DNA of 64,000 bases. Origin: Caenorhabditis remanei. Lineage: Eukaryota; Nematoda; Chromadorea; Rhabditida; Rhabditidae. Under the pieces are notes generated by a model. The model ran no database searches. It was given only the letters and a program-made list of their open reading frames with translations, and was not told where the DNA came from. Position 1 is the stretch's first letter. The number at the start of each line of letters is the position of its first letter. The position numbers and the translations under genes were made by a program. The stretch spans positions 21,202,587 to 21,266,586 of the forward strand of contig NC_071333.1 in NCBI RefSeq assembly GCF_010183535.1. Reading direction: 5' to 3'. This document shows, in pieces, positions 2,851 to 49,754 of this stretch.

Positions 2851-3699
2851 TACATTATACTAGGAGGAATAAACATGAAACATGAACACATGAGATCATA
2901 CCAGAGAGAGTATTACAGAGGAACATGAAAAGAAGTAACCATAGAACATTCAGATTAAGAGTCACATGAACAGACGGATTGCTAAGACTACAGAACTGTG
3001 TCAGGATGGCCAACATTCTAGAGTTTCATAGTTGGAAGGGTTCTGTTAATAAGAAAATGGCTTCGTACTTTAGTTTTGGACTTTTCCCAGACGAACCTGG
3101 TTTTTGGGCGTGTTCTAGTGTACTCACTTAAAGAGAAGAAGTTTTTGGTTACCAATAAATAAGATCCGTGGTTCGGGTGGGATATAGGTTTATTAGGATA
3201 ATAGATATAGGCATCAGAAGAGAGATCATGGATATTGAGGATCGAGGGGATGCCTTGAGATAAGGATTTGACGGTATTTATAGTCCTGGTGGAATGTGGA
3301 GGCGGAGATGCCGAAGCAGCCGGGCGGCGAGGAAGTGTATCAGCCGCGGAGAGCATGGTGCGTGGGCTCCAGGAGGCGGGATGGAATGTCGGCTGGGTTC
3401 GAAGGGCATCCGGAGAGATCATGGGAGACGGAGAGACGAGGCGCATGAGAAGGGTCTGTAAGATGGAATGGTTAGAAATAGCATTGGTCTGTAAGAGGGT
3501 ACCAGAGATCTGTCCTGGACAGTCTCTGTGGAATCCTAATTCCTTCTAGCTTAGATGCCTTCTGGAAAGGAGGAGATAGTGTGCCCTTTCCGGAGAGGGA
3601 AAAGGCAATATCTGAGCCCTTCCCAAATGACGAATAGTTCCGGTTTTGATCCCGGGAATGGGTGACGTCATGAGACTAAGGTACAGGCAAAGCCAAAGG
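2851..3699. other. non-coding, possibly retroelement-derived
   Basis: No supported gene. A 142-codon minus-strand frame (3446..3018) has biased Pro/Ser composition and no recognisable domain. The motif AATTCCTTCTAGCTTA at about 3539-3554 recurs near 29804 inside the LTR element core, which suggests shared repeat ancestry. Confidence 0.3.
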
Positions 3700-5208
3700 A
3701 ATATGCATACTCATTACAATATGTTGGAAAGTTCAGATCCGCACTGATCGAGTAGCGTTGATACATTTGTTAACTCTGTATACCCGTACTTTTCCTTGGG
3801 ACACTTTGCAGATTTTTCACTTCCATACCACTGAAGGGGTACTGTAGCTACAGTAATCCTAAAATCGGAAAGCAGGTTCAAACTGAAAATATGGGGTCCA
3901 TACTTTGGTAGTGACATCCTTGGCACCTTACTACAATACTCCGAAAAATTTGCGCCAGTTTGGCCGAAAAATCCTGAATTTTCAAAGAGTTTGTAAAATG
4001 TTCCAGAAACTTCTAGAAATTTCTAGAAACTCCTAGAAACTTCCTGAAACTTTAAAGCTTCCGGAAACTTTGAAACTTCCAAAACCTCCCAAAAACTTCT
4101 AGAAACTTCTAGAAATTTTCAAAAGCTTCCAGAAACTTCAAAACTTCCAGAACCTTCCAGAAGCTTCCAGAATATCCCAGAAACTTCAAGTAACTCCTAA
4201 AAACCACCCAAAATTACAAAAATTTTCAGAACCTTCAGAACCAGGAGCATCCAGAAACTTCTAGAAGTTTCCACAAACTTCCGGGATTAAAAGAACCGTC
4301 CAGAAAATTCTCTTACATGGAATGTATTTTGACTGCTACCCCTAAATTACCGATATTTTCGCTTATTTGATAAGTTTTCCCAAGACAAAATGACCCATAA
4401 AGGGTTTTCCTATGACGTGACCTCGTTTTTGAAAAATTGAGAATTTTCGAAAATGCAATTTTTTCGAAAAAATTTTTATTCTGAATTCTAGAATTAGAAA
4501 TATTTCTGGTAGTTTCCGGCAGTTTCTAGAAAATTCTGGAAAAATCTAGAAACTTCCGAACCTTCTGGAATTTTTTGGAAGGTTCTGGAAAAGGCTGGAA
4601 TTTTCTGGACGGTTCTTTTAATCCCGGAAGTTTGTGGAAACTTCTAGAAGTTTCTGGATGCTCCTGGTTCTGAAGGTTCTGAAAATTTTTGTAATTTTGG
4701 GTGGTTTTTAGGAGTTACTTGAAGTTTCTGGGATATTCTGGAAGCTTCTGGAAGGTTCTGGAAGTTTTGAAGTTTCTGGAAGCTTTTGAAAATTTCTAGA
4801 AGTTTCTAGAAGTTTTTGGGAGGTTTTGGAAGTTTCAAAGTTTCCGGAAGCTTTAAAGTTTCAGGAAGTTTCTAGGAGTTTCTAGAAATTTCTAGAAGTT
4901 TCTGGAACATTTTACAAACTCTTTGAAAATTCAGGATTTTTCGGCCAAACTGGCGCAAATTTTTCGGAGTATTGTAGTAAGGTGCCAAGGGTGTCACTAC
5001 CAAAGTATGGACCCCATATTTTCAGTTTGAACCTGCTTTCCGATTTTAGGATTACTGTAGCTACAGTACCCCTTCAGTGGTATGGAAGTGAAAAATCTGC
5101 AAAGTGTCCCAAGGAAAAGTACGGGTATACAGAGTTAACAAATGTATCAACGCTACTCGATCAGTGCGGATCTGAACTTTCCAACATATTGTAATGAGTA
5201 TGCATATT
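3700..5208. repeat. 611-bp inverted repeat around a 287-bp spacer at the Maverick left end
   Basis: Bases 3700-4310 are the near-perfect reverse complement of 4598-5208. The arms are rich in short TTCYAGAAAC / GTTTCTRGAA-type repeats. The spacer 4311-4597 holds the outer tip of the transposon TIR (TCTTACATGGAATG...). The right TIR (27475-28374) contains one arm plus the spacer but not the second arm. The left end therefore has an extra inverted copy of the subterminal region outside the tip, which makes this end a foldback. The 70-codon frames in both arms are consequences of the repeat. Confidence 0.85.
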
Positions 5209-30293: not shown

Positions 30294-30979
30294 TCAATAC
30301 ACTTTCGAAGAAATCAAATATCAAGAAATAATGAAAAACGCCACACTTAACTTCAAGCAATTTTATCTGATTGTCTACCGTATTCTTGGATTGACAACTG
30401 GAGAGGAGACCTGGAAGATTTCATTATTTTCATTCATAAAGAGGATGGGATTACTGAAGCTGGAAGCAAAGGGGTATCAAGTGATTAATAATCTCAAGTT
30501 TAGAATGTCTTCGTGCGGTTGACAGAAATGAGCAATGTTTGGAAGTCAACATAAGAGTGGCGGAAAGAATCCAGAAGTTTGTAAGCTAAGCATTCTCTTG
30601 ATTGTAAAACTACTTATTTGTTGTATTTGTTACTTTTGTTTAAAAAAACGTAATAATTTTATTTAATATAAAAAGTTGTTAGTTTTGAAAAATGATACAA
30701 AGAAGAGAAACACTATAATGTGCAAATACACTGCATTCCAGAACTTTGCCAAGGTAGCATTTTTGAAAACGGAAGTCGGGAGTCTAGTCACATAAAAAAC
30801 AAAAAAAAGTAGAAAAAATGGAAAACTTTTCCATCATGCAAATTTGTTAAAGTTTACACGGTTTCGTATTCAGAATGATTATATACTGACTTAATTAAAT
30901 CATTAAGCATATGCTAACTCTCTTCAGTAGCTACTCCAAATTTTATTTCCTCATCCGCAATCTATTTTAATTTTTACTG
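30294..30979. other. AT-rich intergenic DNA
   Basis: A 63-codon plus-strand frame (30331-30522) has no domain or splice support. No gene or repeat structure is otherwise seen before the palindrome. Confidence 0.35.
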
Positions 30980-32579
30980 ACATGGAATGTACTCCGACTG
31001 CTCCCCCACAACTTGCGAGTTTATTGGCTCATTTGATAGATTCTGCGAAAAAAATGACCAATCCAGGAGCTTTTCCGGTGACTGGACCTAATTTTCAAGA
31101 TATTGAGATTTTTAGAAAAAACGATTTTTGGAAAAAAAAATTTCAAATTTTTTTTCATTAATTTTTTGTCCACAGCGCAGCATGGAGATCAAATAGGAAA
31201 TACATGTAGTAGATACATAATGTCTTCAGCTACAAAAAACTAAAATTTAAACTTAAAAAATTATTTCGAAAATGTTTGAATTTTTCTAAAAACTAAAGGC
31301 CTCCAAAAAAAACTTTTTTTTTAAACCATGAAGGTGTGAGTTTTCAACTTAAAAAAAAAGAACAACTCATTTTGTGTATTTTTTTCAAAAAAAATTAGGG
31401 GGTACCCGCGATGAAAAAATAAATACATTTTGTTGAAAATTTCGGTTTTTCAATATTTTGATGGGTATAGAAAATATGTCAGTTGATCTGTTTTAGCTCT
31501 GAAAATTATGTTCAATTCAAAAAAAACTAACAACCACGGACTTGTAAAACTTGTATCAAAAAGTTTGATTGTTTTTTGATCAGTTTCCAATTCGAGGAAG
31601 AGACTCATAAATTACATTTTTTTCAAGTAGTGAAAACTTCAAACGTTTGCCACGTGCTTCAAACTTCAAATAAACGGTTGTTGTTTTTCAAATATACTTA
31701 AAATAGCTTAATTAACAAATTTGGTCACTTTAAACAAAAATTTTGAATTTTACGTTTTTATGAAAATTTCATGTGGTCCCCCCTTATGACATTTTCGAAA
31801 AATGTTAAAATTTAAATTGTTGTTTAAAGTGACCGAATTTGTTAATTCATCTATTTTAAGTATATTTGTAAAACAACAACCGTTTATTTGAAGTTTGAAG
31901 CACGTGGCAAACGTTTGAAATTTTCACTACCTGAAATAAATGTAATTTATGAGTCTCTGCCTCGAATTGGAAACTGATCAAAAAACATTCAAACTTTTTG
32001 ATACAGGTTTTACAAGTCCGTGGTTGTTAGTTTTTTTTTTGAATTGAACATAATTTTCAGAGCTAAAATAGATCAACTGACATATTTTCTATACCCATCA
32101 AAATATTGAAAAACCGAAATTTTCAACAAAATGTATTTATTTTTTCATCGCGGGTACCCCCTAATTTTTTTCGAAAAAAATACACAAAATGAGTTGTTCT
32201 TTTTTTTTAAGTTGAAAACTCACACCTTCATGGTTTAAAAAAAAAGTTTTTTTTGGAGGCCTTTAGTTTTTAGAAAAATTCAAACATTTTCGAAATAATT
32301 TTTTAAGTTTAAATTTTAGTTTTTTGTAGCTGAAGACATTATGTATCTACTACATGTATTTCCTATTTGATCTCCATGCTGCGCTGTGGACAAAAAATTA
32401 ATGAAAAAAAAATTGAAATTTTTTTTTCCAAAAATCGTTTTTTCTAAAAATCTCAATATCTTGAAAATTAGGTCCAGTCACCGGAAAAGCTCCTGGATTG
32501 GTCATTTTTTTCGCAGAATCTATCAAATGAGCCAATAAACTCGCAAGTTGTGGGGGAGCAGTCGGAGTACATTCCATGT
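30980..32579. repeat. 1600-bp palindromic foldback element with Maverick-like tips
   Basis: The left arm from 30980 and the right arm ending at 32579 are near-perfect reverse complements of about 0.8 kb meeting at about 31760-31800. No coding capacity. The tips read ACATGGAATGTACTCCGACTGCT, then ...ATGACC... and GACTGGACCT. These align with the Maverick tip (ACATGGAATGTATTTTGACTGCT ... ATGACC ... GACGTGACCT), so the two elements share terminal ancestry. Confidence 0.85.
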
Positions 32580-32682
32580 GAATTAAACGACGATGTTTTC
32601 AATAGATTTTTTGCACGTTTTTCTTTAATAACCACATCTTTTACATTTTTTTTTCCTTTATCAAAAGTCTAATTTTTTCTAT

Positions 32683-34876: not shown

Positions 34877-35424
34877 ACATTTTTTCGAGTTCTTCATAGT
34901 TGTTTTGTTAGTTCACCTTTTTTGCTGAGGTTTTCCCTTTACATGGTTTTTGTTTCTCCCCTTTTAAAATAAGAATAAATATTCTTCATTCGAGTCAGAA
35001 ATCGTAAAAAAAAGAAGGAGGTTTCGTATATTCAACAGGCAGATGGTGTGATGGATGAGATGGCTAGAGAGGATGGCTTTTTAAATTGGAAAATGACGTC
35101 TTACTTTTTTCAAAAAATATTCATCCTTCTGGTCGCTGTTTCGAGTCAAAAAATACGGAGGCAGGTTTCGTTTTCGATTTCGATCGAGGGCCCTCCCTGA
35201 TTGATAAAGGGAAGAGGAGGGTGGACTTTTTAATTAACGAACACGCTCTTTCAGGAACCTAATCTACATAATCGACCTGCTCCTGAAACGACCCATGACT
35301 TTAATTTGTGTTAGGCCTGACGTTAATGACTTCTTCTCTACTACAATCCCATATGGAATTCTATCATATGTAATACCCATGACTTCCTCCTTCGCCCTCC
35401 TACCAGGTCTATAGCCTCGTGAGT
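34877..35424. other. unassigned DNA before the Gypsy fragment
   Basis: No LTR, gag or protease of the following Gypsy element is recognisable here. A 64-codon minus-strand frame (35458-35264) has no support. Confidence 0.35.
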
Positions 35425-37496
35425 ACCGGTTAAGTATCAAGCCGAGCTTGAAAAACACATTAATGCACTGATCAGATCAGGTAGAATCACAGAAAGTAAT
35501 ACCCCATGGAATAGTCCCATTGTCTTAGTCAAAAAGAAAAACGGTTCTCTTCGAGTATGTCTCGATTTCAGAAAACTGAACGAAGTCACCATCCCTGACA
35601 ACTTTCCACTCCCTAGAATTGACGCTATTTTGGAAAGAGTCGGAGGCTCTCACTACTTCACCTCTATGGATATGGCTAATGGATACCTTCAACTCCGCTT
35701 GGACCCATCATCTTCAAACAAGTGTGGATTTATTACCGAGACGAAGGTATACGCTTACACACATTTACCTTTTGGTCTAAAATCAGCCGCCTCTTACTTC
35801 CAAAGAGCTCTAAAAACCGTCCTAGCCGGGTTAGAAGACAACGCTCTAGTTTACATTGACGATATCTTAGTTTTCTCCAAAACTTTTGAGGACCACGTTC
35901 ATTCTCTACGAAAAGTTATCGATTCCGAAGTTTCAATTTGAAAGCATCTCCAAAGAAATGCGAGTTTGCAAAAAAGTCCATTACCTTTTTGGGACATGAA
36001 ATATCAAAGAACTCGTACGCCCCAAACAAGGCGAATATTGACAGTATTGCAGCCTTTCCGATACCAGCAAACATCAATGAAGTCCGCCGATTCGTCGGAA
36101 TGGCTGGATTCTTTCGTAAGTTTATTTCCAATTTTTCAGAAATCGCGGAACCACTTACTCGCCTCACTAGAAAGAGCAACAAGTTCTCGTGGAATACCGA
36201 ACAACAAGAAGCATTTGAAACACTTCGAACAGCTCTCATTAGCGAACCAATCCTTGGATTTCCGGATTACGAGAAATCGTTCCACATCTTCTGCGATGCC
36301 AGCGCGGTTGCCCAAGGAGCGGCGTTAATGCAGACACGTCCAGACAATGAAAAAGAATTCACTGCAATCGCTTATGCAAGCCGGACCTTGTCCGATCCAG
36401 AAACTAGATGGCCAGCCATTCAAGTTGAGATGGGAGCTATCATTTTCGCTCTACGTCAGTTTAAAGCATACATCTGCATGTCAAAAATCATTCTGCACTC
36501 TGACCATAAACCGCTAACCTTCCTCTTAAAGAAGTCCAAGACACACGACAACCTTGCTCGTTGGCTTATCGAACTTCAGTGCTACGATATCTCAATCGTT
36601 CATATCGACGGGAAGAAGAACACAGTTGCCGATTGTCTTTCCCGAGCCAAAGACAGCGAGGATCCCACAGAGCACGCAGAACTCAAGGACATCGTCAACT
36701 TCCCTGTCTGCATGGCAGCCAGTTTTGCCCCGTGGAATTTTGCGTCACCAGGATCTATTGCACTCGTTCGTCGGGACAAGGAAACCAAACCTCTGGATAT
36801 TGCCGCCGAACAGGAAAAGGACACTGAAATCCAGGCGATCAAGCGATTCTTAGAAGGAAAGGTAACGATTGGATCTCTACCGAAACACGTGCAAAACCTT
36901 TCGCCGCACTACTACTTAACTCCAAACGGGACCGTGATGATCAGGTTCAGTCCCGGTTGAAGAAAATGCATGCTGATCGTCCCCAAACAACTGCGAAACC
37001 TAGTTTTCGAAGCATTTCACGAAAGCTATCTTTCTGGAGGGCACTTTAATTGGAAGAAGACCAAAGCAAAGATTGAAAGAAAGTACTACTGGCAAGGCTT
37101 GGCAAAAGACGTCTACGAATGGTGTCAATCTTGTGACAAGTGTCAGAAGAAAAACTCTCCAGTCCCAGCATACCGAGAACGTCTCCTTACAGTCACAACA
37201 ACTGGCGTTTTTCAGAAGGTAGGTCTTGACCTCACGGGTCCCCTCCGAACTACCGAACGCAATAACAAGTACATTTTGAACATAATTTGTTGGTTTTCAA
37301 AGTTTGTCGTTTCGGTCTCCATACCAGATGCCCGCGCTGAAACCGTAGCTCGAGCACTATTTGTAGAATGTCTTTTGAAATACGGAGCCAAGACCGAGAT
37401 CGTGACAGACAATGCTAAAACATTTGACAGTCATGCGTTCCGAGATTTTTGCGATCTCCTTACGATTTCACATCATAAAGCCATTCCCTACCATTC

Positions 37497-39676
37497 GGCT
37501 CTTTATGATTTAACGGGGGTTTTAAGAATTAACGGGGGTTTTAAAAATAGACGGGGGTTTTAAGAATAGACGGGGGTTTTAAGAATAGACGGGGGTTTTG
37601 AGAATAAACGGGGGTTTTCGACAAGTTCTATTTACTTATACTAAGAAAACCCCAAAATGGTCAGAAATGACTACACTCCCTCCAGAATACATTTTTTTCA
37701 TAGACTTTTCCAATTTTTTTGGTTTTTTTTTGTTTTTTCTGCATTTTCTCATTTACTTATCTATTTTGTACTTCGCATTGTTTTTCGATCAGAGAAGTGT
37801 AATTATTGTCCTCCTTCTTCTTTTGCTCTACATTTGAAATCGACGAAACGGCAATGCTTCGGGCGAAATATAATCGGGATCATATGGTAGATCGTCCAAC
37901 TGTTTGGATTTTTGGATTGCTGGAAAGGAAGACAAATAAGGTAGATTCGATAATCCTGCTGCCCATAATCAGACGTAATCTGAAACCTGGTATGATCTCT
38001 GAAAAAAGTACATTTAAAAAAAGATTTTTGCAAGAACAACGATTATCAGCGATGGCTGGGCTTTGTTCAAGGAGGGAATGAAGAGCGCCAACATTGAAAA
38101 ACGTCTTGACATTCCATCAGCATCAGTACGATGTTGGTTACCTTCAAAAAGGATGGAAGTCTCTAAGAAAGGAAAAAAATCCGGCCGACCAGCTACAGGC
38201 AACACTTGTAGGACTCGAGGAATAATCAAAAGAAAAATCTCCCGCAATTATGATATCAGCATAAACAAGATCACTATGGTTCTAAAAATCAATCGTGGGA
38301 GTGTCCAAATTATCGTCAAAAGGCACTTCGACCCCAAGTCCGACAAACTATGTCAAAGACAGTCCCTTTTCGTCCAATTCCAAGCTTCACAACTTGAAAA
38401 ATCGAAAAAGTTGCTTTTCAATCTGCAGGTCCACGCTCCCCGTATCGCAGAATCCCTTCAAAGACATCTGCTAGAAATCGGTGAGCTTCCAGATTTACTA
38501 GGAAAAAAGGTTAATAGAGCTAAGCCTAAAGCTTCTGAGTCGGGCACCGACTCAGAAGAAGTCGAGTCACTAGGGAGAGCTCTAGTCCAAAGCTATGTTC
38601 CGATTATCGACGAAAAGAAAGGTATCATAGCCGACTTACTTCGTATTAAAACGGACTATACTGTATTTCATGAATTGAACGTGAGCGTTCCAGCTTCTCC
38701 AGAAGAAAATTTGGACTAACTTCCGAAACCCAAGAGTACAACAACTCTTCGATAACACACATAACACCAACAACTATAGTAATCAACAAGCACGAAACAC
38801 GCCAAGATATCCAACTAACACCGAATACTCTAAACAACCTGAACATTCGGCATACAGAGGAAACTCTCAAGATGACCGTAATGCGCAGAGATACTGTGCC
38901 ACGACAGGGAGATGTATGGAATGTACGTCCCTCCTATACGCAATCCACAACTGTCCTCTACGTCTGATGAAAAAGGTAGACGCCGGATGACAGCTACGAG
39001 AAAAAGAGATGGAGCTGAGACTACTCAAAAATTCTAACTCAGCAGAATGCCTGGTTTTGTGTTACTAAAGGAAGCCCTTTCTTTAGTATTCACAACATAC
39101 TAGGAATCTGGGATATTCTTCTGTATGCGGCCCAGCCATCGCTGATAATCGTTGTTCTTGCAAAAATCTTTTTTTAAATGTACTTTTTTCAGAGATCATA
39201 CCAGGTTTCAGATTACGTCTGATTATGGGCAGCAGGATTATCGAATCTACCTTATTTGTCTTCCTTTCCAGCAATCCAAAAACCCAAACAGTTGGACGAT
39301 CTACCATATGATCCCGATTATATTTCGCCCGAAGCATTGCCGTTTCGTCGATTTCAAATGTAGAGCAAAAGAAGAAGGAGGACAATAATTACACTTCTCT
39401 GATCGAAAAACAATGCGAAGTACAAAATAGATAAGTAAATGAGAAAATGCAGAAACAACAAAAAAAAAACCAAAAAAATTGGAAAAGTCTATGAAAAAAA
39501 TGTATTCTGGAGGGAGTGTAGTCATTTCTGACCATTTTGGGGTTTTCTTAGTATAAGTAAATAGAACTTGTCGAAAACCCCCGTTTATTCTCAAAACCCC
39601 CGTCTATTCTTAAAACCCCCGTCTATTTTTAAAACCCCCGTTAATTCTTAAAACCCCCGTTAAGTCATAAAGAGCC
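37497..39676. mobile_element. Merlin-like DNA transposon, non-autonomous, in the Gypsy integrase
   Basis: The 2180-bp insert is flanked by an 8-bp direct repeat TACCATTC (37489-37496 and 39677-39684). Termini are GGCTCTTTATGA(T/C)TTAACGGGGG, and the TIRs are about 560 bp long (to about 38058 and from about 39131). Each TIR has about six subterminal copies of an ACGGGGGTTTTAAGAATAG-like repeat. Both TIRs also encode the same transposase fragment (FEIDETAMLRAKYNRDH ... VWIFGLLERKTNK), resembling the ISXO2/IS1016-type domain of Merlin transposases with its first catalytic Asp. The rest of the DDE domain is absent, so it needs an outside transposase. The 8-bp duplication also fits Merlin (8-9 bp); hAT was considered. 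Confidence 0.8.
38063..38980 (+). pseudogene. composite cargo: Tc1-like HTH joined to a gag-like segment
   Basis: The interior of the Merlin-like element carries one frame (38063-38719). It starts with a paired-type helix-turn-helix as in Tc1/mariner transposases (MFKEGMKSANIEKRLDIPSA, later SGRPATGN). After about residue 95 it becomes a Gypsy gag-like helical segment (SLQRHLLEIGELPDLLGKK). After the stop, the same frame continues with a basic Asn/Arg-rich stretch and Cys residues (CATTGRCMEC) reminiscent of a gag zinc knuckle. No catalytic domain of either type is present. It is best read as captured pieces rather than a working gene. Confidence 0.5.
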
Positions 39677-40432
39677 TACCATTCCAAGGGCAACGGCGCA
39701 ACAGAACGCACATTTAGAACCTTTCACCAGTTAACGTCCAAGTACGTGAATAAAACCCATACCGACTGGGATCTAATCCTGCCAGCTCTTACGTTTTGTT
39801 ACAATACGAGCATTCACAGTACTACCGGAGAAACACCTTTCTTCTTAATGCATGGACGTGATCCAATTTTCAGCATCGACAAAACACTGGATTCAACTCC
39901 GGCGGACGAACCTTCATCTACAGAAGAAGATACAGAAAGTTACAAAGAAGAACTCACCCGAAACGTCAGAGAAGCCTGGTTTCACGCTAAGGAACAATCC
40001 GACAAAGCACGTGAGCAATTTTCTAGTAGCTACAACACCCATGCCAAGCCGACTAACATTAGAGTTGGGGACCGCGTCCTGATCAAAAATTATAAATCAA
40101 AAGTAGGTCTTTCTAGAAAATTAGTCCTTCCATGGATCGGACAGTTCCGAGTCATAAAAATAGAACACCCAGAAGCGGAAATCCAGGACATTTCAAACCC
40201 CAGCTCGAAACCGAAGCGCGTTCATCTTGATCAAATCAAGAAATAATTCGAAATTTCAGGACCGGCCGCCACTAATGCACCCACACAGAATGAAAACGGT
40301 AAGGACCCAGAGCCAGATACCGAACCAGCGCCGCAGCCTCAAAACACTGACCCTGCGGAACAACCAGCGACCGAGCCTCGTTATTCTCTTCGAAAATCTA
40401 TTAAACAACCCGAGCGTTTCCAAGCTCATTGA

Positions 40433-40770
40433 GCAGGAGTTCGTCGACTCTAGCGGTTTCCAAATTCACGGTCGCGGGTATTTCACCCAGATTTTTTTTT
40501 CTAAATCATCCTTCATTACGCCCATCCATTAACTCTCATTGAAACCATTTGCTGAATACTTCCAGTCCGTTCAAATATTTGACCCAACACCTCTCCCTTT
40601 ACCATCCTTTTCTCTCTCTTCCTCTCCCTCGCCCTTCTCTTGACGTTTGCAAATCGTTCCGTAATTTCCGTTCAAATCTCCGCGTCCTCTCCCACCATGT
40701 TATAAACGAGAAACTATTTTTCAGTTAAGTATTCGCAACGAGCCTACCAAAGACAACTTGGTTGTGACAA
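40433..40770 (+). other. pol-helicase spacer with a splice-acceptor-like site
   Basis: Pyrimidine-rich DNA between the pol tail and the helicase ATG. CTATTTTTCAG ends at about 40724, 47 bp before the ATG. This is a good nematode 3' splice site that could serve a spliced subgenomic mRNA, as for env genes. Confidence 0.4.
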
Positions 40771-43700
40771 ATGGAAGAACCGCCTAATAAGCGAATGCGT
40801 TCTCTATCAGAAGAAATTCTGTTTCCCGCACCAAGTCCTGAGCCCATGGAACACGGACAAGACTACCATGCTGAAATAGTCAACTTCTCAGGACCATGTC
40901 CCGTTGAAGAAGATTCGATCTTGGAAAATCTCGAGAATATCAGTTCCCAAAGTACAGTTTCGAACAAAGATGATTACATAGATTTCATTGATCCGATCAT
41001 TCCAGAAGAACCTAGTTCTGTCAAATATGGACCAACTGTACTCGTGCAACGCTCCCACAATTCCGTGGTGCCGGAAGTCGAACAAGAGAGTATGGAAATA
41101 GACGAAGACGACACCATCGCAAAGCCTATTCCCATCGGGCTAACCCCACAAGCCGAACATCCGTTCACCGGCAACTACAAAGAGAGAAACGAAGAACTTC
41201 CCCAGAAACCAGCCAAAAAGATTGCAGCTTCAGAATCTCTCGCCGGAATTCAGAAGTTCCGAGAGGAAACACTTCGTCAGATGCTGATCCCAACCGAGAA
41301 AACCAAAGGAACGAATGGAGCCCCAAAAGATGTTCTCAAAACCGTCAATACACCAAATCCAAATGGAGTTCTCTATGCCCTCCTTGAGTCTGCAGGAAGC
41401 GGGACCCACATGATACCTCTTCACAAAGAAGTCGTAGTCAATGACCGTCCCGATCTCTTCATGATCCAGATGACCCAGAAGTCCACGGATACATTGAACG
41501 AAGGACCACCATGTATGCGAGATTTCTATCCTGGAGACCTCGTTTACGTCTTCTCACTTCAACGCCGCCCAGACGCCACACTGGAAAACTTGAAAAAGGA
41601 TTTCACAGCCCTTCTGGATCCAAAAGAGCACACGTTCTGGAACGTCAAAGAGTTCTGTTTGATTCACAGAAGCATTACTCCCAACCGACTTCTTTTGATA
41701 CAAGATGCCAACACCCACATGCGATCAGCAAGTTGCGTAGCCGCAGGGGTTAACCAACTGGTCCGAGCACCAGCTAACCTCCTGAAACGAACTAATGTAC
41801 CACGGAAAAACGGAATCTTAACATGGGCAACCATCTTCCATCCACCTTTCAACGCCGGACAATTGTTAAGAGGAATCCGGCCTGGGGACGGAAAACATTT
41901 TGTAACCCAGGAAACCGATTGTCAGCCAGTGGTAGCTCCATTCCCACCAGTCGTCACCGACTTGAGGACAGTCAACTCGGACGATGTTGACATAATCCGG
42001 GCCTGCCCCGAAATCTGTACTAAGATGGAATTGAGCGACCCAGTCGCGTCAGAAGTCTTGGTAACCACAGCCCACTTTGGCCTTTCTGCCGCCCTCGCCC
42101 TCGAGAACAAGGATCGCGACTACCGGACGTACGCGACCAAAATCGACGCATCCAGAGAGACCAGAAGAGGAACAGTCGTCACCTTCGCTATCAAGAAGCC
42201 AAGTGGCCCACCGTCACTCACGTCGTGGTCCAGAAATGTATCGTTCAAGATGGAACTATCGGACGGAGTTCGCCTCGACATGGAAGTCGACAATGCCACA
42301 GAGGAGAGCAGCACCGTCGTCGTGACCGCCAAACCAGCTCACTCCAGCAGGAACCGAGTTCCGCGCTGCAACGAGCTCACCGGTCAAAACATTGTTGTTT
42401 TCCAACCTGTTGAAAACAACCTTCACCAGCTTCGAGCCATGCCCAAGTTCAAACAGTTCCAAAGCATAGATCAGAACTCTCCAGCAATGCTCCTGGTACG
42501 TGCACTAGCCGGCGGATCTAAAATCCAGTCCGGGAACCACACATACCAAAAGATTAAGCGGGGGAACCTAGTTCTTTCCGACAAGCAATCTAACTATGCG
42601 TGCCTCCTGGTTAATCCTGAAGTCCCAGCAGTGCTCGCCAACTCACCCTTCGGAGTAGGTAAAACACTCATGATCGTAGCAGCAGCTCGACTCGCCGTGG
42701 AGAAGTCTCGTCAGTAAATGTCTCTCCAAGTCCTTACCGGAACTACCAACGCATCCGTCGTTGCCATGGTTCAAACCTACTTGAACCAAGACAAAGAAAA
42801 CTCGGCCCGAGCTGTTCGCCTCATCACCGAACCCAATCGTGCTCGACAGATGGATCCACTCCACACGGAAATTGACTTCTCCGTCCTCTGGCCCAACGCG
42901 TTCCTGAACTTCCTGATCAAGACGGATAAGGAACTCTTGTCTGCCGAACAAGTTCCCAACACTCAGCTGGTCGTAGCCGCAGCAACCTTCCTGAAAAAGC
43001 ACGGATTCCTCGAAGGAGTCACCTTCAAGCATCCCCAGCTAGGACAAATTGCAAGGAAACCCATCATTGAAGCAGACAACGAGGAATCTCCAGACCTCTT
43101 CTCAACCGTCCTGAGAATATACCGCCCTCGCATCGTCCTGGCCACTTCGGCAACGTTAGTCGAGCAATTCAAGAACGGGTCCTGGTCCCCGCTGGTGGAA
43201 AATGTCGAAACTGTGCAAATCGACGAAGCTTCTCAAACTCCATGGTACTCCCTCCTCACCCTGGCCTCAACATTCCCCCAGGCAAGATTCGGACTCATCG
43301 GAGACCACCATCAACTGGCCCCACACGCCCACGTCGATCTTCCACCACTGTGCAAGAATGTTGCAATTGGAAATCTGCTCCAAAGTGCTGCAGAACGGAA
43401 CCTGGTTCCGGCAGTAAATGTAACATCGGTCTACCGCTGCACAAGAGAACTTACGCTTCTCATCTCAAAGTTAGCGTACAACAACACTATCAAGCCGAAG
43501 AGAGAGTCCGAGCCGGAGCATCACCTCATTCAAGGCCTTCACTTACCAAGTAAGTACCCCGTACAGGTCCTAGACCTGCGTTCCCAATCTACCAAAGCGG
43601 GAACCTCCCAATTCAATAAAGAAGAAGCCGACCTAGTCGCAAAACTCGTCAAGAACATCGGAGCACTAGAACAAGGAAGAACAACCAAATCGACAATTGG

Positions 43701-44009
43701 AGTGCTCTGCTTCTACAAAGCACAAGCTGGACTTGTCGGAACCCTCCTCGAGGATGAACCGGTCTTCGTCAACACGATCGACGCGAGCCAAGGTCAAGAA
43801 TTCGATGTCACCTTTGTACTGACATCGTCCTCAACTCCCTTCTCCTAATCTCCCTTCCTCGGAGACGTCAACCGCTTCGTCGTGGCAACCACCCGTGCCA
43901 AGCACCTCTGCGTCGTCTTGGCCAGCCGACAAAATGCCGAGAAGTCCACCATCTGGAGGAGATTCATCGACCACCTCCCAAGGGGCGCCGTCAACGAGCA
44001 CCGAAATTG
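40771..44009 (+). pseudogene. UPF1-like SF1 helicase frame in env position of the Gypsy element (two in-frame stops)
   Basis: One continuous frame of about 1079 codons starts at ATG 40771. It is broken only by TAA codons at 42715-42717 and 43846-43848, and ends at TGA 44007-44009. The first 640 codons are an unrecognised acidic N-terminus followed by a mixed region (GDLVYVFSL; NIVVFQPVENN). The C-terminal part has the full SF1B UPF1-like set: Walker A FGVGKT, motif Ia VLTGTTNAS, DEAS (VQIDEASQTP), GDHHQL, TIDASQGQEFDV and VATTRAKH. Such helicases remodel RNA or RNP. It lies on the same strand as pol and before a polypurine tract, so it appears to be part of the element. The alternative is a captured or neighbouring host gene. 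Confidence 0.75.
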
Positions 44010-44157
44010 ATCTCAAGGTAACTTTGAATCTTCTTAAAGTGGTCTAGTTACTAAAACCAGTATAGCCCCCAGAAACATTTGCTTTTAAATAATACCTTAC
44101 TTAGGATCCTAGATCTAGTTAAAAATGCCCACAATTCATATTAACTTGCCACGGACC

Positions 44158-44954
44158 AGGGACGGTCCTATGCAAAGGGGGGAGGTGTAAGGGATCAGTT
44201 TTCGGGTAGCAAAGATATCAGTAGACAAGGAAGAAAAAGAAGCAGAATAATTGTAAAAAAAGTGAAGCACTCGGATGAAGAAGGAAAACGGATCGAATAA
44301 ATCCTGTCAAAAAGAAAAAGGAAACATCAGAAGAAGCAGAAGAAAACAATGAATAACAGTTCGGAAAAGATCAAGAAGAATATCACGAAAGAAAACCGAA
44401 GAGGACAAATTGGGGAAAAAGAAAGAAATATGGAAATGTGGAAAAGTGATTTTGAAGAGCAGAAAGAAAAGGAAGTGGAAACCCCTAAATCAAGCACCAG
44501 GGACGGTGCTAATTTTTGAAGGGGTGGGATGTCATACGAATCATGCGAGGCGTAAACAAAAACAGCTCCAGCTGTTAAGTGCAACATCTGAGGAGAGAGA
44601 GATAAGAGATAGAAAAAGAAGAGGCACCAATCAGTCTTGCCTCCGGCAAGTCACCTGGCTGGTCGCAGAGAGAACACCTCCTCTGCTCAGCCTTTTCGAC
44701 ATTCTTTCTTTTAGCTTTCTTTTAGTTTTCTTTAACACTTAATCCCCAAGCGAACGATAACATAATTATGTAATATTTATCCCTTAGTTAGACCAATTAT
44801 CTATGTCTCCTTTACTAACCTTTTATAAATAAACTCCATTATGCTAAATGTGTACTGTTGTGAATGTATGAAAAAGAAACTGCCTCCTAGACCCCACCAG
44901 AGGTCTAGGCCGCAGTAAAAGACAGACTGGAAGACATGACCCAACTAAGGGACA
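44158..44954 (+). repeat. polypurine tracts and 3' LTR-like region
   Basis: AAAGGGGGGAGG followed by TGTAAGGGATC (TG at 44186) looks like a polypurine tract and LTR start. A second similar context, GGACGGTGCT...GAAGGGGTGGGA/TGTCATACG, places another candidate LTR start at 44530. TATAAATAAA at about 44826 and a possible CA end near 44954 complete the LTR. The GGACGGT.CT lead-in appears before both tracts, suggesting a local duplication. No matching 5' LTR lies in the window. Confidence 0.5.
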
Positions 44955-44964
44955 TAAGTAATTA

Positions 44965-45240
44965 GAATGTCGATTCAACATTATTTTTTGTTTATTTAAA
45001 TGGTTTTGAACATTTTGACATTAAAAATTCAAAAACTCCAAGAGGAAAAAAAGAAGTTTTTTTTTGAAATTTCAAATCAAGATCAGGAAAAATCGATTAT
45101 CGAAAAAAAATCAAAGATGGAAGTTTTTAAAAAAACATATTTTCTGATTGCTGAATACTTTGGCTTCGTTTAAAAAAAATTTATGCAAAATGGACTTGTT
45201 TCAGCAGAGTTGCATATGAAAGTATGCAGGGGTACTCACT
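44965..45240. repeat. single arm of a foldback repeat family
   Basis: This segment is similar, inverted, to 62889-63170 and, direct, to 63740-64000 (shared GATTCAACAT.ATTTTTTGTTTATTT and CATATGAAAGTA motifs). Here only one arm is present, abutting the 20-bp satellite. Confidence 0.7.
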
Positions 45241-45282
45241 TATGCTCGCTACTGTAACTCTAAAACTGTTAGAAGTTTCCGA

Positions 45283-46954
45283 TTGCGCTATTCGGAAACA
45301 TCCTGATTCTCTCTAACGCATCCCGATCTATTCTAACGCATCCTGATCTGTTCTGACGCATCCTGATCTGTTTTAACGCATTCTGCACCAATCTCAATTG
45401 TCCTGCGCCATTCTGGAGCATCCAGCACAATTATAAAGCATCCTGCCTCATCCTGAAGCATCCTGATTTAGTCAAACGCATCCTAGTCTGTTCTAACGCA
45501 CCCTAATCTGTTCTAACGCATTCTGCACCAATCTCAATTGTCCTGCGTTATTCTGGAGCATCTTGCGCTATTCGGAAACATCCTGATTTTTTCAAACGCA
45601 TGCTGATTTATTCTAACGCATCCTGATCTATTCTAATGCATCCTGACCTGTTCTAACGCATTCTGCACTAATCTCAATTGTCCTGCGCCATTCTGGAGCA
45701 TCCTGCGCTATTCGGAAACATCCTGATTCTCTCTAACGCATCCTGATCTATTCTAACGCATCCTAGTCTGTTCTAACGCACCCTGATCTGTTCTAACGCA
45801 TTCTGCACCAATCTCAATTGTCCTGCGTTATTCTGGAGCATCTTGCGCTATTCGGAAACATCCTGATTCTTTCAAACGCATGCTGATTTAGTCAAGCGCA
45901 TCCTAGTCTGTTCTAACGCACCCTGATCTGTTCTAACGCACCCTAATCTGTTTTAACGCATTCTGCACCAATCTCAATTGTCCTGCGTTATTCTAGAGCA
46001 TCCTGCGCCACTATAATGCATCCTGCCTCATTCTGAAACATCCTGATCTATTCTAACGCATCCTAGTCTGTTCTAACGCAACTTGATCTGTTCTAACGCA
46101 TTCTGCACTAATCTCAATTGTCCTGCGCCATTCTGGAGCATCCTGCGCTATTCGGAAACATCCTGATTCTCTCTAACGCATCCTGATCTATTCTAACGCA
46201 TCCTGATCTGTTCTGACGCATCCTGATCTGTTCTAACGCATTCTGCACCAATTTCAATTGTCCTGCGCCATTCTGGAGCATCCAGCACAATTATAAAGCA
46301 TCCTGCCTCATCCTGAAGCATCCTGATTTAGTCAAACGCATCCTAGTCTGTTCTAACGCACCATGATCTGTTCTAACGCATCCTGCATCAATCTCAATTG
46401 TCCAGCGCCATTCCGGAGCATCCTGCGCCATTATAATGCATCCTGCCTCATTCTGAAACATCTTGATTTATTCTAACGCATCCTGATCTACTCTAACGCA
46501 CCCTGACCTGTTCTAACGCATTCTGCACTAATCTCAATTGTCCTGCGTCATTCTGGAGCATCTTGCGCAATTCGGAAACATCCTGATTCTCTCTAACGCA
46601 TCCTGATCTATTCTAACGCATCCTGATCTGTTCTGACGCATCCTGATCTGTTCTAACGCATTCTGCACCAATTTCAATTGTCCTGCGCCATTCTGGAGCA
46701 TCCAGCACAATTATAAAGCATCCTGCCTCATCCTGAAGCATCCTGATTCAGTCAAACGCATCCTAGTCTGTTCTAACGCACCCTGACCTGTTCTAACGCA
46801 TTCTGCACTAATCTCAATTGTCCTGCGTTATTCTAGAGCATCTTGCGCTATTCGGAAACATCCTAATTCTCTCTAACGCATCCTGATCTATTCTAACGCA
46901 TCCTGATCTGTTCTGACGCATCCTGATCTGTTCTAACGCATCCTGATCTGTTCC
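45283..46954 (+). repeat. 20-bp satellite array 1 (140-bp higher-order repeat)
   Basis: About 83 consecutive 20-bp monomers with consensus near TCCTGATCTGTTCTAACGCA keep perfect 20-bp phase over 1.67 kb without a single-base indel. A diverged monomer TTCTGCACCAATCTCAATTG recurs at 45381, 45521, 45661, 45801, 45961, 46101 and on to 46801. Spacing is 140 bp apart from one of 160, defining a seven-monomer higher-order unit. Confidence 0.93.
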
Positions 46955-48600
46955 TTGTTTTGCTGGCAGACGGCGCATCTTTCGACGACTTTCTGAATGG
47001 ATTGATGCATTCCCTTCCATGTGGCAATTGATTTGACACGTTGCAATGTTTTCTCGAATTCTAGATGGGCACTCTCGAAGAGAGATTCGTGAATCATCTT
47101 GGTGAGTTCTTTTCCATATTGCGATTTGGGTGGAAGAAGAATAATCCATTCTTTTTCTGGTGTTCTCAGGAATACAACGTCGTCATGAATGGTGAATTTC
47201 TTCAAATTGTTTGCCATATCCAAGATCCTCTCATCTTTGGATTGTTCATCTCGAACTTTGGCAAAATCGATGTTGTGATTACTAGTTAAGGCATTGATTG
47301 CAGGTGGTACATCTGCGGTGGCAATCTCTCCTTTCTTCTTGGTGTTCTGCTTGTCTGGCGTTGATTCGGTGTCTTCTTTCTTCTCTGGATGATATCTCGA
47401 AAGAGTATCACAAACGATGTTCTGCTTGCCTGGTCGATACTGGATGTTGATATTCATGTCGTGGATGGTGAGTTGATATTTTCCAAGACGTCCAGCTAAC
47501 TCCTTTCGGTACATCAAAGACTTCAATGGTGAATGGTCCGTTATGATAGTAGTATGAGCGCCATCAATATACGGGCGAAAAGTCTTGGCAGCGAACACTA
47601 ATCCCAGAGTTTCCAATTCGATAGCAGGGTAGTTCTTCTCGAATCGATTGTAGACACGGCTAGCGTAGGCAACAACTCTCAAATCTTTCTCATCATCACC
47701 TTGTTGTTGATACAATACAGCTCCAACTCCTTTTCCAGAAGCATCAACTTCGATGACGAATGGTTTTCCAAGACGAGGAGCTACCAAAATTGGTTCGGTA
47801 GTCAAAGCATCCTTGAGTTGTTGAAATGCTTGTTGTCGCTCAGAAGTCCATTCGAATTTTTCATCTTTCTTGGTGAGTTCGATAATTGGAGCAGCAATCT
47901 TTGAGAAGTTGTTCACAAAACGTCGATAAAATGGTGAAATCCCGATTGAAAATCCAAACTGGTATATAGTTCTTGTCCACCACACAAGTCCAATATTTCT
48001 TGAATATTCGGTATAACTGACTGCACCGGCTTCGTAACCGCATTGAGTCCTCGAAAATCCACTGTAAACCGCCATGCTATACCATCCGCTTTTCGAACCA
48101 AAACGATTGGGGCGAGAAATGGAGAATTTGAGGGTCTGATGATCCTCTGTTCCAGCATTAATCTGATTTGCTTTCCAATTTCTTCTCGTTTTTCTAGCGG
48201 AATTCTATAAATCTTTGTCTGGGGAATGTTGCATCCTTCTTCCAAATCGATTCGATGTTTGATTGGACCGGTGTATTCTCCTAATATACCGTCTGGACCA
48301 ACGAATGCTTCAGCATCCGCGTCGATGATCACTCTCAGGACTTCCTTTTGATTTTCGGTGAGTTTTGATTTTGAAAGATCCACCCAATCTGATATCCGAA
48401 AGTTTTTAGGTGTCTCCTGGGGAAGTTTCGGTAGTTTCGATTCCCAGTCTGCTTCCGGTGATCCTCTGACTTCATTCATCGTTTTCACTTGTCCAATCTT
48501 CGATCCGATGGCAATAGGTTTGTTTTTCTCAAGACGAACACTGGTAGATGAAGGGTTGAAAACTTGAACCATGGTTTTTCCTTTCGGTCCGACTCTGAGC
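46955..48600 (-). pseudogene. Gypsy pol fragment with RT core deleted, between two satellite arrays
   Basis: Minus strand. The 5' part (48600 to about 47940) has a pre-RT region and the RT start (SPFLAPIVLVRKADG, WRFTVDFRGLNAV, LYTSLDFQSGFHHF). It then jumps, with a frame change at about 47940, to the RT thumb (FYRRFVNNFSKIAAP), RNase H (FVIEVDASGKGVGAVLY, TDHSPLKSL) and the integrase zinc-binding region (CAVCQQNK). The RT palm with its catalytic Asp pair is missing. From the thumb onward it is nearly identical to the copy at 60.9-61.97 kb. Both ends pass abruptly into the 20-bp satellite. Confidence 0.85.
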
Positions 48601-49754
48601 TCCAGAATGGCGCAGGACAATTGAGATTGATGCAGGATGCGTTAGAACAGATTAGGGTGCGTTAGAACAGACTAGGATGCGTTAGAATAGATCAGGATGC
48701 GTTAGAGAGAATCAGGATGTTTCCGAATAGCGCAAGATGCTCCAGAATGACGCAGGACATTTGAGATTAGTGCAGAATGCGTTAGAACAGATCAGGGTGC
48801 GTTAGAGTAGATCAGGATGCGTTTGAATAAATCAGGATGTTACAGAATGAGGCAGGATGCATCATAATGGCGCAGGATGCTCCAGAATGGCGCAGGACAA
48901 TTGAGATTGATGCAGAATGCGTTAGAACAGATCAGGGTGCGTTAGAATAGATCAGGATACGTTAGAGAGAATCAGGATGTTTCCGAACAGCGCAAGATGC
49001 TCCAGATTGACGCAGGACATTTGAGATTAGTGCAGAATGCGTTAGAACAGGTCAGGGTGCGTTAGAGTAGATCAGGATGCGTTAGAATAAATCAAGATGT
49101 TTCAGAATGAGGCAGGATGCATTATAATGGCGCAGGATGCTCCAGAATGGGGCAGGACAATTGAGATTGATGCAGGAGACGTTAGAACAGATCAGGGTGC
49201 GTTAGAGTAGATCAGTATGCGTTAGAATAAATCAGGATGTTTCAGAATAAGGCAGGATGCATTATAGTGGCGCAGGATGCTCTAGAATGGCGCAGGACAA
49301 TTGAGATTGGTGCAGAATGCGTTAGAACAGCTCAGGATGTTTCCGAATAGCGCAAGATGCTCCAGATTGACGCAGGACATTTGAGATTAGTGCAGAATGC
49401 GTTAGAACAGGTCAGGGTGCGTTAGAGTAGATCAGGATGCGTTAGAATAGATCAGGATGTTTCAGAATGAGGCAGGATGCATTATAATGGCGCAGGATGC
49501 TCCAGAATGGCGCAGGACATTTGAGATTAATGCAAGATGCATTAGAACAGATCAGGGTGCGTTAGAACAGACTAGGATGCGTTAGAATAGATCAGGATGC
49601 GTTAGAGAGAATCAGGATGTTTCTGAATAGCGCAAGATGCTCCAGAATGGCGCAGGACAATTGAGATTGGTGCAGAATGCGTTAGAACAAGTCAGGGTGC
49701 GTTAGAGTAGATCAGGATGCGTTTGACTAAATCAGGATGCGTTAGAGAGAATCC
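48601..49754 (-). repeat. 20-bp satellite array 2, inverted relative to array 1
   Basis: About 57 monomers of the same 20-bp satellite in reverse complement (GTTAGAACAGATCAGGATGC type), again with perfect 20-bp phase. The marker monomer TTGAGATT..TGCA recurs at 48621, 48761, 48901, 49021, 49161, 49301, 49381, 49521 and 49661. Spacings are 140, 120 or 80 bp, so length changes are whole monomers only. Confidence 0.93.

Follow-up and report, generated by a model that had tools for sequence, protein, structure and literature searches.

A predicted UPF1-like superfamily 1 helicase as the third open reading frame of a Gypsy retrotransposon family in Caenorhabditis remanei

In a 64,000-nucleotide stretch of the Caenorhabditis remanei genome (C6:21202587-21266586, hereafter the window), we describe a decayed copy of a Gypsy long terminal repeat (LTR) retrotransposon, termed family A, which carries a predicted UPF1-like superfamily 1 (SF1) helicase as a third open reading frame (ORF3) after pol. 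The helicase belongs to the element, as it lies between paired LTRs together with pol in both LTR-paired copies of family A (2/2), where it is unbroken and under selection. The association of pol and helicase is beyond chance, because two independent insertions each hold both genes inside a pair of identical LTRs. A first-pass annotation, made from the window, had interpreted the helicase as part of an LTR-bounded element with pol, and this interpretation was supported by the two full insertions identified in the genome (130.5-Mb assembly, 186 contigs).

Complete family A elements and the window copy

When window positions 41000-44500 were searched at the DNA level against the same genome, 11 places were returned, two of them matching solely the unrelated 3' repeat. 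Two complete elements were identified: C161:19186-31333 (12,148 bp; LTRs of 381 bp, 100% identical; target site duplication (TSD) ATTG) and C6:21082423-21094560 (12,138 bp; LTRs of 380 bp, 100% identical; TSD ATTC). In both, ORF1, pol and ORF3 are enclosed by the LTRs, and ORF3 is an unbroken frame of 1079 amino acids (aa) that starts about 300 bp past pol as a separate ORF. The copy at C102:32867-43093 is the C161 insertion again, with a common flank, 99.9% identity over 9.8 kb and a truncated 3' end. A deleted copy with a piece of LTR was found at C40:2396-4939, and family A fragments lie at C40:168.6-169.4 kb and C122:304.7-305.6 kb.

Family A shows the features of Ty3/Gypsy elements, namely an LTR pair starting from TG, a short target duplication (4 bp), the polypurine tract (PPT) AAAGGGGGGAGG and a primer site. 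The LTR ends in ATT rather than CA, and the primer site at the end of the 5' LTR starts with TGG, the sequence after the LTR being TGGTACCAGCG. The domain order gag, protease, reverse transcriptase (RT), RNase H and integrase was observed in the C161 copy (Pfam: Retrotrans_gag 1.3e-9, Asp_protease_2 6e-7, RVT_1 3e-29, RNase H 9e-29, H2C2 5e-20, rve 9e-11). The pol frame (1031 codons) comprises RT, RNase H, H2C2 and the integrase core, and it overlaps ORF1 in a different frame.

Selection was estimated from the ratio of nonsynonymous to synonymous substitution rates (dN/dS; Nei-Gojobori, pairwise counts without a tree), counted for the helicases of family A and of the B-type elements described below. 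Between the C161 and C6 copies, dN/dS was 0.077 for the helicase (86 synonymous and 23 nonsynonymous changes), 0.067 for pol and 0.084 for ORF1, with dN values of 0.0094 for the helicase and 0.0086 for pol. ORF3 is therefore under purifying selection as strong as that on pol.

The window copy spans 35421-44199 (Table 1). It is a 5'-truncated Gypsy element into which a DNA transposon has inserted; its helicase frame is interrupted by two stops, and 14 bp of the 3' LTR remain. This copy is dead, since its start falls inside RT, the RT frame is broken and the LTRs are gone. Its pol piece is 97-98% identical to three copies (C161, C102 and C6:21.08 Mb), and the inverted arms of the nested transposon (37706-38061 and 39130-39485) are 98% identical. 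The Gypsy pol upstream, the same-strand frame of about 1079 codons and the two point stops reported by the first-pass annotation were all recovered, the stops being TAA at codon 649 (42715-42717) and codon 1026 (43846-43848). Of the SF1 motifs that it listed, GVGKT, DEAS, GDHHQL and DASQGQEFD are read in frames of the window, and TTRAK in the unbroken copies, to which the window ORF3 aligns over its whole length (97.6%). The splice acceptor noted at 40724 is likewise present and is retained in both full copies, as TTTTTCAG in C161 and TTTTTACAG in C6; the spacer of the window copy holds 45 extra bp at 40440-40484. The proposed PPT and LTR-like sequence downstream was borne out in part, as the PPT and the first 14 bp of the LTR are there, but a full 3' LTR is not and the element stops at 44199. 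Beyond about 44200, the window sequence is a different repeat, with matches elsewhere in the genome.

Table 1. Features of the window copy of family A and of related ORFs (window positions unless a locus is named; rc, reverse complement)
Feature	Position	Strand	Basis
Family A pol, 5'-truncated (RT part, RNase H, integrase H2C2 and core; broken frame)	35421..37496	+	RT_RNaseH 1e-28
Nested terminal-inverted-repeat DNA transposon, ~2.2 kb, splits integrase	37497..39674	.	Gap when aligned to other copies, all without insert
Family A integrase tail / pol end	39675..40432	+	94-98% identity to three copies; pol frame of intact copies ends here
Pol-ORF3 spacer with splice acceptor-like TTTTTCAG ending at 40724	40433..40770	+	Sequence reading
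ORF3, predicted UPF1-like SF1 helicase, 1079-codon frame	40771..44010	+	Unbroken in C161 and C6:21.08 Mb copies
Motif I / Walker A GVGKT	42652..42666	+	G630, K631, T632 invariant, 10 aligned helicases
Motif II DEAS	43222..43233	+	D818 invariant, 10 aligned helicases
Motif III GDHHQL	43300..43317	+	G844, D845 invariant, 10 aligned helicases
Motif V DASQGQEFD	43780..43806	+	S1006, Q1007, D1012 invariant, 10 aligned helicases
Motif VI TTRAK, placed by codon number of unbroken copy	43888..43902	+	R1042 invariant, 10 aligned helicases
PPT AAAGGGGGGAGG	44174..44185	+	Identical PPT abuts 3' LTR in C161 and C6 copies; junction-pattern match
3' LTR, initial 14 bp (TGTAAGGGATCAGT), remainder lost	44186..44199	+	Alignment to full copies
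Envelope-like stretch between gag zinc knuckle and protease, two family A copies	L010:5046-7118; L012:5280-7352	-	ORF1 reading
~180-aa Cys/His ORFs	L041 (rc 2911-3456); L040:8186-8725; L027:2-463; L027:620-1162		ORF reading

Other structures were observed in and around the family. At C2:19210365-19223548 and C4:10564165-10577342 (L043-L046), about 13 kb separates two family A LTR fragments of 288-305 bp that face outward. Each fragment sits in one of two inverted arms, which are at least 2.0-3.5 kb long and 100% identical within each element; from the appearance of their ORFs, these two elements may be Polinton-like. Within the window, two long tandem arrays in inverted orientation (45141-46950 and 48579-49750) lie on either side of a further, minus-strand Gypsy pol (46933-48641), and an inverted repeat of 555 bp with 99% complementarity and arms 506 bp apart was found at 30972-32587.

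Identity of ORF3 and other helicase carriers

Judged by profile and motif comparisons, ORF3 is assigned to the UPF1-like SF1 helicases. The Pfam domain AAA_12 was matched by the second open piece of the window ORF3 (2.9e-17) and by the unbroken C161 ORF3 (1.3e-24). In an alignment of ten helicases, which includes three (L032, L034 and L038) without LTR evidence, AAA_12 was matched in 10/10 and motifs I-VI are present; the invariant residues are those listed in Table 1 and R1035. A profile of the helicases searched against PDB retrieved UPF1 first (2.3e-27), followed by NAM7, SEN1, ZNFX1, DNA2, SMUBP-2 and coronavirus nsp13. ORF3 thus resembles the SF1 helicases of the UPF1, SEN1, ZNFX1 and DNA2 type in its AAA_12 match and motif set, but the N-terminal zinc/CH domain of UPF1 was found in no part of ORF3 by the Pfam sequence scan (E up to 0.1), by which ORF3 would not be classed as UPF1 proper. 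Residues 1-619 matched no Pfam family at E up to 0.1. A viral origin, as proposed for the helicases of insect retrotransposons, was considered and rejected, since Viral_helicase1 scored 1.9e-4 against 1.3e-24 for AAA_12 and the profile search was led by UPF1. In a scan of viral contigs with the helicase profile, 38 stretches were matched by pattern and none was confirmed as a relative.

When LTR elements gain a gene after pol, this is usually discussed as the gain of an envelope. The view that the third ORF here is a helicase instead, as the first-pass annotation held, stands, and ORF3 as an envelope was rejected, since ORF3 is a helicase without a strongly hydrophobic segment. Nevertheless, an envelope-like part may be present in family A, at an unusual location inside ORF1 and away from the env position. 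Measured from stop to stop, ORF1 has 1396-1398 codons and encodes, in order, Retrotrans_gag, a zinc knuckle (below cut-off), the envelope-like stretch and an aspartic protease. In C161, where the stretch was read, its beginning is hydrophobic, and it contains cysteines, an RSKR site and a single strong transmembrane-like segment. Pfam Monjiviricetes_fusion (PF24664) matched it weakly, at 2.2e-5 in C161 and 1e-5 in C6 (23 and 24 bits, cut-off 27), and the match was also weak with the whole ORF1 as the query (9.3e-5). The C161 piece had no match in PDB at E up to 1.

A translated search of the genome with ORF3 returned 44 matches. The possibility that all other copies of the helicase lie outside LTR elements proved false, as 12 lie inside LTR pairs, two with RT and ten without detected RT. 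These ten elements belong to two related LTR types and carry divergent helicases (25-33% identity). The B type comprises five near-identical copies (C3:1.896, C3:2.343, C4:6.469, C1:15.582 and C1:2.701 Mb) and a copy at C3:15.255 Mb with 81-83% DNA identity to them; the flanking LTR pairs were shown by a search with a 607-bp piece of the B 3' end, and the LTR-paired B-type elements number seven when C3:13.853 Mb, with a partial helicase, is counted. The B element at C1:15.58 Mb spans 27.8 kb, and therefore something else is probably inside. The flanks of one B copy show the TSD ATTT, and its 5' region gave no pol match (best E 2.2); this region and a neighbouring stretch hold three related ORFs, two with 180 and 181 aa and one with 154 aa that is truncated where the stretch ends. 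The B helicases have dN/dS values of 0.054-0.235 (10 pairs from 5/6 B copies in hand, L033 left out), and their frames are open over 1073-1124 codons in 5/5 near-identical copies. The three remaining elements have LTR pairs of another type, here called E-type (C4:1.892, C3:1.866 and C3:11.846 Mb), and the edges of the last two derive from partial LTR matches. No RT was found in the ten LTR-paired helicase spans (seven B-type and three E-type) among the 104 RT places listed, which derive from one RT as the query with 103 of 127 candidates scored, so that a missed or unlike RT is possible.

The PPT-LTR junction pattern of this LTR lineage was found at 37 places, of which 27 match exactly and 10 carry one mismatch, with 0 in the control. 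At 15/37 junctions there is a same-strand helicase match, the nearest 162-566 bp upstream, and within 1300 bp the opposite strand has none. Six of the 37 have a related RT (70-83%) without a helicase, and 16 have neither. Counted from the helicase side, 17/44 matches are linked to the pattern. Among the unlinked ones, the family C helicases (on C16, C122 and C183) have their own PPT and LTR start, the flanks read for L032, L034 and L038 showed no LTR start of this kind, and C3:11.846 Mb is off the pattern yet has an LTR pair. The distant helicases, such as the C2:15.7 Mb cluster, may be host genes.

Two further observations concern these LTR types. Window positions 3269-3718 hold a fragment (83%) of the family C LTR region, of the type adjoining the C16, C122 and C183 helicases. 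Five LTR pairs 5.6-6.0 kb apart, including L047 (C1:8553800-8559260), are related to the E-type LTR and enclose no RT or helicase among the matches listed; L047 has a gag-like ORF of 424 aa with a zinc knuckle.

Relatives without the helicase and known systems

Two groups of pol-bearing relatives, D and E, were identified. The D copies (C4:16.77 and C4:16.81 Mb) have an RT 83% identical to that of A, LTRs about 90% like those of B, and a pol with 66% identity to A over residues 225-1029. Behind pol in the single D copy that was read lies an ORF of 182 aa, which is related to the small ORFs of B at 32-37% identity (E 5e-15 to 9e-31). The ~180-aa Cys/His-containing ORFs (Table 1) are thus located downstream of pol in D, and one B copy has them in a tandem arrangement; the one scanned, from L040, gave no Pfam match. 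The E copies (C4:9.32, C4:17.20, C2:16.67 and C5:2.29 Mb; RT 70%) include one that was read, in which the frame open at the pol end, identified as pol by location without a match of its own, stops about 175 bp short of the LTR. The distance from the RT match to the junction is 5.3 kb in A, 3.1 kb in D and 1.85-1.93 kb in E (4/4 copies), and because of this short distance there is no room for a helicase after pol in E. No helicase match lies in the two D or four E spans among the 44. Pol running straight to the 3' LTR, an arrangement that would tell against the helicase as part of the element, is accordingly absent from family A (0/2 LTR-paired copies), but D and E do lack the helicase.

Insect retrotransposons (TRAS and Jockey long interspersed nuclear elements, LINEs; Ty1/Copia fusions) carry virus-derived SF1 helicase domains (PMC5563155, PMC6338049). 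They share with family A an SF1 helicase with a full motif set, conserved over time in retroelements, and RNA quality control and silencing suppression have been proposed there as well. The insect helicases differ in being relatives of those of virga-like plus-strand RNA viruses and domains inside LINE or Copia proteins, whereas family A has a separate ORF3, not fused to the RT or pol protein in either full copy, in a Gypsy LTR element, with a helicase that by profile is nearest to the cellular UPF1 type and with further helicase elements without detected RT. In bdelloid rotifers, LTR retrotransposons have enzymatic ORF3s encoding a GDSL esterase and a DEDDy exonuclease (PMC5408684), which, like ORF3, are non-envelope enzyme genes after pol common to different retroelements. 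These are other enzymes, and their intragenomic evolution is described as without significant departure from neutrality (PMC5408684), in contrast to the low dN/dS observed here. Cer1 of C. elegans is, like family A, a nematode Gypsy element in which a large ORF that is not an envelope gene separates pol from the 3' LTR (PMC10309623). Its protein CERV is made from spliced RNA and acts on element RNA, its C-terminal half being encoded in the gene position of ORF3, but it has 517 aa and no obvious homology outside nematodes (PMC10309623). Cer1 is recognised by the tRNA-Pro primer site TGGGGGCCG (PMC10309623), and family A has TGGTACCAGCG instead.

The first-pass annotation knew of no LTR element described with an RNA helicase. 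This holds in a narrower form, since SF1 helicases of viral origin in insect retroelements and enzyme ORF3s in rotifer LTR elements are already known (PMC5563155, PMC6338049, PMC5408684), while the present combination, a UPF1-like helicase as ORF3 of a Gypsy element, was not recognised among the papers listed by searches of the open-licence literature, which do not extend to subscription journals or repeat databases.

Possible role of ORF3

The helicase is very probably a working part of the element. In the account that we favour, ORF3 would be made from a cis- or trans-spliced message via the acceptor ahead of it, and would bind the element's own RNA and remodel or protect it. The protection could be from host UPF1-type decay or small-RNA silencing; alternatively, ORF3 may have a role in export or packaging. 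It would act at least partly in cis, because elements that would have to borrow copying proteins in trans still keep the helicase. The nearest functional guide is CERV of Cer1, a nuclear protein on which genomic RNA depends for its export (PMC10309623). Where a stop separates gag from pol, retroviruses must have ways to prevent nonsense-mediated decay (PMC10309623), and the different frames of ORF1 and pol in family A may be set beside this point. Action on the element's own RNA is held tentatively, with confidence a little short of even, and the account as a whole, an LTR-bounded selected helicase with such an action, appears to us moderately probable.

Several observations weigh against this account. 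The evidence on the role of ORF3 comes from genome sequence, and the proposed cis action is an argument rather than a measurement. The selection estimate for family A comes from one pair of unbroken copies, and the broken window copy gives dN/dS values of 0.31 against C161 and 0.099 against C6, the former being expected because this copy is decaying. With the single ORF3 sequence as the query, DNA2 ranks first in PDB (7e-8) and UPF1 second (2.8e-6), so that UPF1 leads with the profile only. Most helicase matches (27/44) do not adjoin the junction pattern; these include family A fragments, family C, L032, L034, L038, C3:11.846 Mb and the distant helicases. D and E do without the helicase, and it is therefore not required across the pol lineage. 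Finally, the divergence of the helicase does not track that of pol, as the RTs of A and D are 83% identical and the helicases of A and B about 32%. Because the latter are so far apart although helicase and pol rates are equal within A, it appears more likely that helicases were exchanged, or captured separately from a family of helicase genes, than that they simply descended together with pol.

Other explanations were weighed against the same evidence. Caenorhabditis has strong small-RNA silencing, and ORF3 might suppress it, or compete with the helicases of that pathway, so that copies escape control by PIWI-interacting and small interfering RNAs, with no RNA-remodelling role in replication. 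The weak silencing-suppressor activity of insect transposon helicases in a plant test (PMC6338049) and the SF1 helicase ERI-6/7, a small-RNA factor of C. elegans (PMC3213143), are consistent with this. However, a suppressor acting in trans would equally help copies without ORF3, and for this reason it would need cis-preference or local action; we consider the explanation unlikely. Host helicase genes caught by chance and drifting with LTR elements, or copies kept by the host, could account for the SF1 helicases without a detected LTR signature (L032, L034, L038 and the C2:15.7 Mb cluster). Such passengers are very improbable given that two insertions, each with identical LTRs, differ at a dN/dS near 0.08, that several divergent families hold helicases between LTR pairs, and that the frames of 5/5 near-identical B copies are open. 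A chance neighbourhood of pol and helicase is ruled out by the LTR pairs, the TSDs and selection.

A different arrangement is suggested by the distribution of the two genes: pol elements (D, E) and helicase elements (B, E-type) with common LTR and PPT types might depend on each other in the manner of a segmented genome, with A as the fused form. B and D have common LTRs (~90%) and a related ~180-aa ORF, D has pol without a helicase and B a helicase without detected pol, and E and the E-type helicase elements have a common PPT and LTR start. On the other side, B could just parasitise D, the need of D or E for the helicase being an assumption; the LTRs of E and of the E-type query element are just 68-72% alike over most of the match; and primer sites were read solely in A and one B copy. 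We regard this arrangement as quite doubtful, and equally doubtful the divided LTR retroelement that it implies, in which pol and helicase elements move together and the cycle depends on the helicase for the handling of RNA.

For the biology of these elements, the analysis indicates that, within a single genome, elements of at least three LTR types carry a UPF1-type helicase, that selection maintains it in both types for which this was counted, and that it is retained also in elements without detected RT. Family A and its relatives offer a testable case in which a retroelement carries its own version of an RNA-surveillance enzyme of the host, and possibly one in which a retroelement genome is divided.

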